A stretch of DNA of 52,787 bases, from the NCBI RefSeq assembly GCF_000801955.1, contig NZ_JSZO01000037.1, positions 1 through 52,787 on the forward strand, written 5' to 3'. This stretch comes from Ralstonia sp. A12. Its GTDB lineage: Bacteria > Pseudomonadota > Gammaproteobacteria > Burkholderiales > Burkholderiaceae. This document shows positions 17,024-19,319 of the stretch, one piece after another. Positions within the stretch are counted from its first letter, which is position 1. Each line of letters starts with the position of its first letter. Under the pieces are notes generated by a model. The model ran no database searches. It saw nothing but the letters and a program-made list of their open reading frames with translations, and was not told the DNA's origin. The translations under genes were made by a program, and so were the position numbers.

Positions 17024-17947
17024 TTAGCGCAGCGTCTCACCGGTCAGGCGCGTGAGCGCTTCGCGGTACTTGTCAGCGGTCTTTTCGATCACGTCGGCAG
17101 GCAGTTGCGGCGCTGGGGCCGTCTTCGGCCACGGCTTGCCGTCGATGCGCACGGCCTCCAGCCAATCGCGCACGAACTGCTTGTCGAACGACGGCGGGTT
17201 GGTGCCCACCTGGTACGAATCGGCCGGCCAGAAACGCGACGAATCGGCGGTAAGCGCCTCGTCCATCAGGGTGAGCGTGCCGTTCTCGTCCAGGCCGAAC
17301 TCGAACTTGGTGTCGGCGATGATGATGCCGCGCGTGGCAGCAAAGTCGGAGGCTTCCTTGTACAGGCGGATGCTCACGTCGCGGATCTGCGCGGCGAGGT
17401 CGGGGCCGATGCGGCGCACGACTTCATCGAAGGAGATGTTCTCGTCATGCTCACCCATCTCGGCCTTGGCGGCGGGGGTGAAGATCGGCTCGGGCAGCTT
17501 CTGCGCGTTCTGCAGGCCGGGGGCAAGGTGCACGCCGCAGACAGCACCGGTCGCTTGGTAATCCTTCCAACCGCTGCCGGCCAGGTAACCACGCACAACA
17601 GCTTCCACCAGGATCGGCTTCAGGCGCTTGACCACGATGGCGCGGCCGCGCACTTGGTCGACCTCGTTTGCGGCCACCACGGTTTCCGGGGCGATGCCCG
17701 TCTCGTGCGTCGGCACGATATGGCGCAGCTTGTTGAACCAGAAGTCCGACATCTGTGCGAGCACGCGGCCCTTGTCCGGAATCGGCTGGCCGAGAATCAC
17801 GTCAAACGCCGACAGGCGGTCGGTGGTGACCATCAGCAGCTTGTCGTCGCCGACAGCGTAGTTCTCGCGCACCTTGCCGCGGCCGAGCAACGGCAGGCTG
17901 GTGATCGACGATTGATAAAGGGCGGAGGCAGCAGGGGTGGCGGACAC
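17024..17947 (-). CDS. purC: SAICAR synthetase
   Basis: PurC joins aspartate to CAIR with ATP to form SAICAR. The 307-residue length matches the longer SAICAR synthetases. Motifs include [58 protein letters not shown] and IADTKFEFG, with the terminal [19 protein letters not shown]. The start codon is GTG, with only a weak ribosome site. A TATAAT-type promoter sits about 40 bases upstream, inside the edge of an unusual inverted repeat. It is the first gene of the purC–purE–purK–tsaC run. Confidence 0.95.
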
Positions 17948-17988: not shown

Positions 17989-18016
17989 ATTATATAGGGT
18001 CTGTTGGCACGCCAAA
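17989..18016 (-). promoter_or_regulatory. purC promoter candidate embedded in an inverted-repeat arm
   Basis: On the minus strand a perfect TATAAT (17989–17994) follows TTTGGC or TTGGCG by 15–16 bp. The -35 lies inside TTGGCGTGCCAA, a 12-base palindrome within the left arm of the 30-bp inverted repeat, so a protein binding that palindrome would control purC. Confidence 0.55.
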
Positions 18017-18187
18017 CGCGCGCACGTTGGCCCGAGCGGGGGTCAGATGCGCGGAGGACGCCGCCGCAAAGGGCCTTCCCTTTGCAAGGCGCGCCGACAA
18101 AGCAGATGGCCCCTGATCGGGTCAACCCGAAGGGCTAGGTGGCTTCAAGCCACCTAGCGTGCGTGCGTTTGGCGTGCCAACAGGCCC
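17997..18187. repeat. 191-bp element bounded by 30-bp inverted repeats, with internal hairpins
   Basis: The arms 17997–18026 and 18158–18187 are reverse complements at 28 of 30 positions. Each contains TTGGCACGCCAA or its complement. Inside are a perfect hairpin GCAAAGGG/CCCTTTGC (18066–18085), CGGGT/ACCCG (18118–18129) and a 10-bp hairpin CTAGGTGGCT/AGCCACCTAG (18135–18157). There is no open reading frame. It fills most of the 307-bp gap between fba and purC. It could be a small non-autonomous element, a structured RNA or a pair of operators. No clear target duplication is visible. Confidence 0.8.
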
Positions 18188-18202
18188 TTTGGCCCATGCA
18201 AT

Positions 18203-18231
18203 GCAAAACGGCTGGCGCAGTGCCAGCCGTT
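18203..18231 (-). terminator. fba intrinsic terminator
   Basis: A 10-bp stem AACGGCTGGC/GCCAGCCGTT with a five-base loop is followed on the minus strand by TTTTGC, just downstream of the fba stop. Confidence 0.85.
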
Positions 18232-18254: not shown

Positions 18255-19319
18255 TTATTGCACCACTTGCGCCAGCTTGCCGCTCGCGTAGTCAGCAGCG
18301 ATGACCGACAGGCCGATCGGCTTGATCTTGCCGGCCTGGCCTTCGCAGCCGAACTCGATGTAGCGCGCCTTGCAGACTTGCTTGGCAGCTTCGCGGGCGG
18401 GTTTGAGCCATTCGCGGGCATCGAACTTGTCCGGGTTTTCGGCCAGGAACTTGCGCACCGCGCCGGTCATCGCCAGGCGGATGTCGGTGTCGATGTTGAT
18501 CTTGCGCACGCCGTACTTGATGGCTTCCTGGATCTCTTCGACCGGCACGCCGTAGGTTTCCTTCATCTTGCCGCCGTACTGGTTAATGATGGCCAGCAGC
18601 TCTTGCGGCACGGAGGACGAGCCATGCATCACCAGGTGGGTGTTCGGGATGCGCGCGTGGATTTCCTTCACGCGGCTGATCGCCAGGATGTCGCCGGTGG
18701 GCTTGCGCGAGAACTTGTAGGCGCCGTGGCTGGTGCCGATGGCGATGGCCAGGGCGTCGAGCTGGGTGGCCTTGACGAACTGGGCAGCCTCTTCCGGGTC
18801 CGTCAGCAGGGCCGAGTGGTCGAGCTTGCCCTCAGCGCCGTGGCCGTCTTCCTCGCCGGCCATGCCGGTTTCCAGCGAGCCCAGGCAGCCGAGTTCGCCT
18901 TCCACGGTCACGCCAACCTTGTGTGCCATCTCGACCACGCGGCGCGTCACGTCGACGTTGTAGTCGAAGTCGGCCGGGGTCTTGCCGTCTTCGCGCAGCG
19001 AGCCGTCCATCATGACCGAGCCGAAGCCCAGATCAATGGCACCCTGGCAGATCGCCGGGCTTTGGCCGTGATCCTGGTGCATGACCAGCGGGATCTCCGG
19101 ATAGGCTTCCACAGCCGCCTGGATCAGGTGCTTGATGAAGGACTCGCCGGCGTACTTGCGGGCGCCTGCGCTGGCCTGCAGGATCACCGGCGCGCCGGTT
19201 TCCTTGGCCGCTTCCATCACGGCCTGGACTTGCTCCAGGTTGTTGACGTTGAACGCCGGCAGGCCGTAGCCGTTTTCAGCGGCGTGGTCCAGCAGTTGGC
19301 GCATGGAAACGAGTGGCAT
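18255..19319 (-). CDS. fba: Class II fructose-bisphosphate aldolase
   Basis: Fba catalyses the zinc-dependent reversible cleavage of fructose 1,6-bisphosphate. The 354-residue protein belongs to the Calvin-cycle subtype of class II aldolases. Visible elements are [17 protein letters not shown], the metal/active-site [26 protein letters not shown], the second metal region [12 protein letters not shown], and the phosphate-binding HGSSSVPQE and [11 protein letters not shown]. The ribosome site AGGAG precedes the ATG. It is the last of the leftward glycolytic run pgk–pyk–fba and ends in a strong terminator. Confidence 0.96.

Follow-up and report, generated by a model that had tools for sequence, protein, structure and literature searches.

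Between the fba and purC genes of Ralstonia sp. A12, immediately upstream of the -10 hexamer of purC, lies a long inverted repeat, and its position raises the question of whether it belongs to the promoter, to an RNA, or to neither. The original prediction, made on the window (the whole 52,787-nt stretch of DNA that was analyzed), offered three answers: a mobile miniature element that had brought in a promoter, a looping pair of operators, or a structured RNA. The structure itself is confirmed. A repeat search returned outer arms at 17996-18026 and 18158-18188 that are 31 nt long, 94% complementary (29/31 positions), and separated by 131 nt, as well as a perfect 12-bp hairpin at 18134-18145/18147-18158, one of the kind that had been seen between the arms. 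The palindrome predicted within the arms, TTGGCACGCCAA, is an interrupted one (TTGGC-AC-GCCAA) in the left arm and is found as its reverse complement in the right arm. RNA folding of both strands, proposed at the same time, gave -149.7 kcal/mol for the 191 nt of the plus strand (z -14.47, with none of 200 shuffles as low) and z -9.96 for the minus strand. The segment at 17997-18187 is a whole element of the GGG...CCC type, with the same ends as in other copies; its parts and its surroundings are listed in Table 1.

Table 1. Features of the fba-purC gap in the window and of the 191-bp element that it contains
Feature	Positions	Strand	Basis
purC, downstream gene	17024..17947	-	NCBIfam NF010568 and TIGR00081, above cut-off
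TATAAT, purC -10 hexamer, in native flank outside the element	17989..17994	-	found in 14/14 readable relatives without the element
TA, left boundary, target-duplication position	17995..17996	.	right counterpart 18188-18189 is TT; TA on both sides in 39/80 copies
Whole element, GGG...CCC, 191 bp	17997..18187	.	repeat search; ends like 80/94 extracted copies; absent in 14/14 readable genus-mates
Left outer arm, terminal inverted repeat, stem P1; variable segment 18005-18015	17997..18025	+	repeat search, fold, copy comparison
TTGGCG, weak -35 candidate in left arm, 15 nt from -10	18010..18015	-	read by eye; no promoter by scan
First inner hairpin arm P2, apex CGCCGCAAAGGG..CCCTTTGCAAGGCG	18026..18126	+	fold; conserved in other Ralstonia and Cupriavidus copies
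Small linker hairpin CC-GAA-GG, junction	18127..18133	+	window fold, consensus fold
25-nt perfect hairpin at the position of P3, the second arm (~100 nt in full-length copies)	18134..18158	+	repeat search; alignments
Right outer arm, partner of 17997-18025 (27 Watson-Crick and 2 G.T pairs)	18159..18187	+	read from sequence; repeat search, fold
fba, class II fructose-bisphosphate aldolase, upstream gene	18255..19319	-	NCBIfam TIGR01521, above cut-off

The element is not confined to this gap. The genome of strain A12 (G000) carries four strong copies, on contigs C31 (the window copy), C24, C3, and C6, with E-values from 1.3e-103 to 2.2e-37, and matches to the window element were found in 9 of 41 genomes (its own and 40 relatives), all in its own genus. 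A scan of named genomes returned three copies in Cupriavidus, and the plasmid collection yielded a single match, in Burkholderia stagnalis; no match to the element was found in the phage collection or, by exact-pattern search, in the viral contigs. A single genomic copy with no arm conservation and no transcript had been named beforehand as the result that would argue against mobility or a functional RNA; there are four copies in the same genome and others in relatives. A covariance model of the second inner arm, R1, matches 110 of 398 genomes and 10 of 25 genera in the family (E up to 1e-3) and 100 of 399 genomes and 52 of 159 genera in the order (E up to 1e-6); these E-values are rough, and at most nine candidates per genome were scored, so that copy numbers are lower bounds.

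Such a distribution bears directly on the idea that the two arms are a regulatory pair specific to purC, bound by a repressor that loops the DNA between them. In its favor, two matching sites lie beside a biosynthetic promoter at a distance of ~160 bp from each other, but the same architecture is found beside unrelated genes of the same genome (of the six ORFs next to the other copies, two have a named family, acid phosphatase and beta-ketoacyl-ACP synthase) and in many other genomes, and the site is empty in all 14 genus-mates in which it is readable. Because arms mirrored in this way are also found at many further sites, the looping pair is not supported and must be regarded as highly improbable. 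On distribution and statistics (four copies, empty sites, shuffles, and 110 of 398 genomes), a purine operator pair, an RNA specific to purC, and chance were all rejected.

The fba-purC gap, whose comparison among relatives had also been suggested, could be read in 14 of 15 genus-mates (the fifteenth, G006, gave no match), and the element is absent from all 14. The empty gap of G004 reads CATTATACGTGGCCCATGC, as opposed to CATTATA-TAGGG...CCCTT-TGGCCCATGC in the window, and the gaps of the remaining genus-mates vary in length and keep ATTATAC. Since the -10 hexamer is kept in genus-mates without the element, it is native to purC, and the sequence upstream of it has been displaced by the element, which in the window stands where the native -35 region would lie; any effect on purC is putative. 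The left arm had been credited with providing the -35 region. It does contain a weak candidate, TTGGCG (18015-18010), with four of six -35 letters and a poor 15-nt spacing to the -10, but a promoter scan (16-18 nt spacing, 9 of 12 letters required) found no promoter. With the -10 native in 14 of 14 empty relatives and the -35 poor, the notion that the element brought in a promoter does not stand. Between the element and fba, at 18207-18231, there is a further hairpin, AACGGCTGGC..GCCAGCCGTT, which is also present in genus-mates and is terminator-like on the plus strand by scan, whereas fba is encoded on the minus strand.

Target duplication is cleanest at another locus, where the filled site reads AAACTTA-element-TAATCCATCG in G225 and G237, the only two of 28 fetched genomes in which the element adjoins the flank, and the empty site reads AAACTTAGTCCATCG in G183, the nearest relative without the element, revealing a duplication of TA. 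A second locus, also filled in 2 of 28 genomes, is consistent by length with a 2-bp duplication; at both loci, no call could be made for some less closely related genomes, the alignments of which lie too far from the junction. At a third locus, the flank of which is present in 59 genomes, 3 of the 30 fetched sites are filled and 27 are empty, with less clear boundaries. Among the 80 GGG-type copies, TA is found on both sides in 39, on the left in 49, and on the right in 48, so that 41 do not have it on both sides. In the window, the duplication is imperfect, because TA on the left (17995-17996) faces TT on the right (18188-18189). The search for further copies with flanking duplications has therefore upheld the mobile miniature element of the original prediction, with four own-genome copies, others in relatives, empty sites, and a TA duplication that is clean elsewhere. 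With dispersed copies (four in its own genome and R1 matches in 110 of the 398 genomes of the family), terminal inverted repeats (94 of 97 loci), and target duplication with empty sites (clean TA at one locus, a second by length, and TA/TT for the window copy), the element is a MITE in the broad sense, one whose nested and mirrored architecture with two hairpins is unusual.

Most of the extracted copies (87 of 94) are 263 to 288 bp long, and the seven shorter ones measure 164, 166, 177, 191 (the window copy), 194, 232, and 247 bp. The layout starts with one half of the outer stem P1 (~29 bp), continues with the first and then the second inner arm, between which many copies have a small CC..GG hairpin, and closes with the remaining half of P1; the window copy has a plain 25-nt hairpin at 18134-18158 instead of the second arm. 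A consensus fold of 14 full copies contains 109 pairs, 41 of which have at least one two-sided change. The model R1 also matches the first arm, on the opposite strand, in at least 25 of 88 elements; this is a lower bound, as the best 150 of 179 matches were used, and the count is limited to separate, non-overlapping matches, a long hairpin scoring on its own other strand as well. Each inner arm is therefore the inverted homologue of the other, which makes the element a nested palindrome, and a full copy can be pictured as an outer self-complementary stem (the terminal inverted repeats) around two such arms.

The outer inverted repeat is present in 94 of 97 loci, the other three being out of scan range, cut by a contig end, and missing the left part, respectively, and 80 of the 94 have GGG-type ends. 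Among 19 loci from outside the family, 18 have an outer stem with at least 17 of 20 pairs, the exception (L250) being cut by a contig end. The ends themselves vary by group (GGGYCTGTT, AGAACCCATTTC, TAGAGCGTGCTATG, GAGCCTATTTC, AGGGCTCG, AGGGCTCGTTAATG, and others), all with the shared core. In G006, the same core carries a third kind of end (TAGAGCGTGCTATGCAC..., L147 221-452). Palindromes of ~50 bp that consist of two AGAACCCATTTC arms alone and are too short for the inner core (G346:C46:105518-105571, with similar ones in G235, G296, and G346) share genomes with full elements. A 79- to 80-bp relative with the same ends and unmirrored arms (L025 146-224, L026, L028, and L030) apparently occupies one common site in four genomes of the genus, and one of its end sequences is also found in the A12 genome (G000:C58:196258).

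Between the conserved end and the inner arms, P1 of the GGG-ended set differs freely from copy to copy, and its two arms hardly differ within a copy. At positions 9-19, 788 of 803 cells pair within their own copy (73 copies, i.e., the 80 minus 7 that share flanks), whereas 2000 trials with the right arms shuffled among copies averaged 425 paired cells and never exceeded 483; the arm finder required at least 18 of 22 pairs, which somewhat conditions this score, and 94 of 97 loci passed. Outside the element, pairing rises above the cross-copy level at -1 to -3 (0.97 versus 0.78, 0.68 versus 0.47, and 0.42 versus 0.32), as would be expected from a palindromic YTAR target; at -4 to -12 it does not, except at -9 (0.36 versus 0.28). 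Two Cupriavidus copies at different sites are 96% identical elsewhere and 59% identical in the variable segment, the respective values being 91% and 41% for two own-genome copies and 98% and 95% for the single orthologous pair in this comparison. As the different-site pairs diverge in this segment and the orthologous pair does not, most of the arm variety seems to lie between different insertions and not to be the product of rapid change within a site.

The proposed source of the mirrored arms is DNA copying that sometimes switches template between them (quasipalindrome correction); a change in one arm would then be written into the other, and the arms would stay complementary. At fixed sites (six orthologous loci with 14 copies and flanks 84-99% identical, a small sample), five changes are two-sided with the pairing kept, in two loci and two of them adjacent, one is two-sided and leaves the bases unpaired, and about 20 affect a single side. 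Template switching would explain the paired two-sided changes, and so would conversion from another copy; because changes at fixed sites are mostly one-sided, arm-to-arm copying can be put forward only conditionally. It is a substantial, if not the favored, possibility that the element is the same but its arms are mirrored through gene conversion by other copies, or through loss of mobility of unmatched copies, instead of template switching within a copy. The variable segments partly recur between copies (42 distinct ones in 73), one-sided decay dominates at fixed sites, and gene conversion could produce two-sided changes; nevertheless, the five two-sided pairs in two of the six loci are more than the ~0.05 that, by a rough estimate, mutations independent of each other would give, and new matched variants must still arise somehow.

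The strength of the fold also calls for weighing selection on RNA, i.e., a family of structured non-coding RNAs (dispersed RNA genes or processing sites, such as RNase III substrates in mRNAs) with stems kept by that selection. The very low z-scores (-16 in L003 and -14.5 in the window), the two-sided changes in 41 of 109 consensus pairs from 14 copies, the tandem T.G that hardly varies in the inner arm, and the better folding of the plus strand of the window all agree with such a family. Mismatches offer a way to tell the two apart, as a selected transcript should tolerate G.U and not A.C. In the outer stem, they have no strand preference: of the first 23 P1 pairs in 73 copies, 1643 of 1679 are Watson-Crick, 10 are G.T, 10 are A.C, and 16 are other, and 24 P1 pairs in all 80 copies give 22 G.T versus 20 A.C of 1920. 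This equal rarity of G.T and A.C favors DNA-level arm-to-arm copying over RNA selection.

In the inner arms of 14 copies, with invariant wobbles left out, the two arms lean opposite ways on one strand, with 12 G.U versus 2 A.C in P2 and 8 versus 24 in P3. An alignment of 84 distinct second arms, fitted to the model, has two nearly invariant T.G pairs (in 84 and 81 of the 84); the raw count of 236 G.U versus 85 A.C becomes 32 versus 85 without both of these and a third T.G/T.T position. Because each inner arm is an inverted homologue of the other, a transcript that contains one of them in a given sense contains the other in the opposite sense. Their strand-specific features, which point opposite ways along a given strand, fit a single RNA less well than they fit hairpins read as DNA, or either strand being used, which is not proof. 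The nearly invariant tandem T.G is a sign of selection on the folded strand that arm copying does not explain. A search of 20 loci (19 further element loci and L095, an IS locus) against Rfam returned no family at the gathering threshold, and a permissive E-value added only matches far below it, mostly of the microRNA type. Given also the sporadic presence at sites, the structured RNA of the original prediction is not favored and appears unlikely.

If the element moves as DNA, without a transposase gene inside, its ends point to a candidate helper. An 826-bp IS5-family sequence (L088 in G002, 1426-2251) with the ends GGGCCTGTTTACATTTG and GGGTCTGTTCACATTTT reads CTAG across both boundaries, encodes its transposase in two frames, and shares the GGGYCTGTT ends and the TA target with the element; an IS5-family transposase of this DUF4096 type could act in trans on the common ends. 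The genus contains 11 DUF4096 loci, in 4 of 16 genomes, among which both ends are found only in L088 and nearly so in L090, 4 of the 11 being at contig ends and thus not judgeable. Since none of the three DUF4096 loci of the A12 genome has a pair of matching ends, the helper is a candidate only. The interior of L088 has no blastn similarity to the elements beyond the ends, the best interior match having an E-value of 0.2 among the matches listed. Ten plasmid records contain at least 80% of L088, some of them annotated as IS5 family transposase; the nine best are 74-79% identical, all Burkholderiaceae by name. For copies with other ends (AGAACCCATTTC, TAGAGCGTGCTATG, GAGCCTATTTC, AGGGCTCG, etc.), no helper is known to us. 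Exact AGAACCCATTTC ends occur at 55 places in six genomes, with no opposed pair at a distance of ~1 kb, the arrangement expected of a helper IS; all of these places are accounted for by ~270-bp copies, ~50-bp palindromes, single ends, and a lone ~180-bp pair.

BIME/REP and ERIC repeats are, like the present family, inverted hairpin units dispersed between genes; they differ from it in size, in end sequences, and in the long copy-specific outer stem. The GGGYCTGTT ends and TA target shared with L088, and the absence of a transposase gene inside, liken the element to IS5-family MITEs, from which it is set apart by an interior unlike that of L088 and by the occurrence of the two-arm core with other terminal sequences. 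The closest known kind appears to be the Correia elements (CREE or nemis) of Neisseria, which are not homologous to it as judged by model R1. According to PMC2649163, these are short, hairpin-forming elements with target duplication and variable yet mostly symmetrical inverted-repeat ends, all of which they have in common with the present family, and they can furnish half of a promoter, either a -10 or a -35 together with part of a -10. The Correia end pattern used for the locus search is present in 5 of the 399 order genomes, which belong to a single genus, and absent from G000. The loci that it retrieved (L263-L292, which we take to be from Neisseria) are 68-157 bp long, as opposed to 164-288 bp in the present family, and their ends are followed by GGCGTTG and similar mirrored segments. 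These alternative end segments are mirrored in some loci (L271 and L275) and unmirrored in others (L267, L279, and L290). Membership in the Correia group was rejected, as the ends are GGGYCTGTT instead of the TATAGTGGATTAA type and R1 has no match at E up to 1 in the 30 Correia-end loci. No description of the present family was found in the titles and abstract beginnings among the matches listed, subscription papers being outside their scope, and one may be in print; PMC10969869 cites a 2004 report on avrA in Ralstonia solanacearum for a MITE insertion.

Taken as a whole, the window probably holds a partly rearranged copy of a non-autonomous MITE-like element whose insertion in this lineage lies 2 bp upstream of the native purC -10 hexamer, with ends that would be moved in trans by an IS5-family transposase and arms that would be kept complementary by template switching. 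A wider and more tentative proposal, doubtful as it stands, is that of an order-wide superfamily of foldback mobile elements with a conserved double-hairpin core and interchangeable transposon ends, in which the ends of each copy would rewrite each other, giving every copy lineage its own self-complementary ends, and the folded DNA strand with the invariant tandem T.G would be the working intermediate of movement.

If the probable reading is true, the element represents a large repeat family, undescribed among the papers that were searchable, that reshapes intergenic regions across a bacterial order. It would also be a natural test bed for comparing selection with DNA template switching as the source of compensatory stem changes. 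Such changes are usually taken to prove that an RNA is functional; the strand-neutral mismatches of the outer stem suggest that here they have a DNA cause. Template switching, as argued in PMC8794818, can create and maintain hairpins in RNA genes, and a dispersed family with many independent copies would allow the upkeep of hairpins by this process to be measured.
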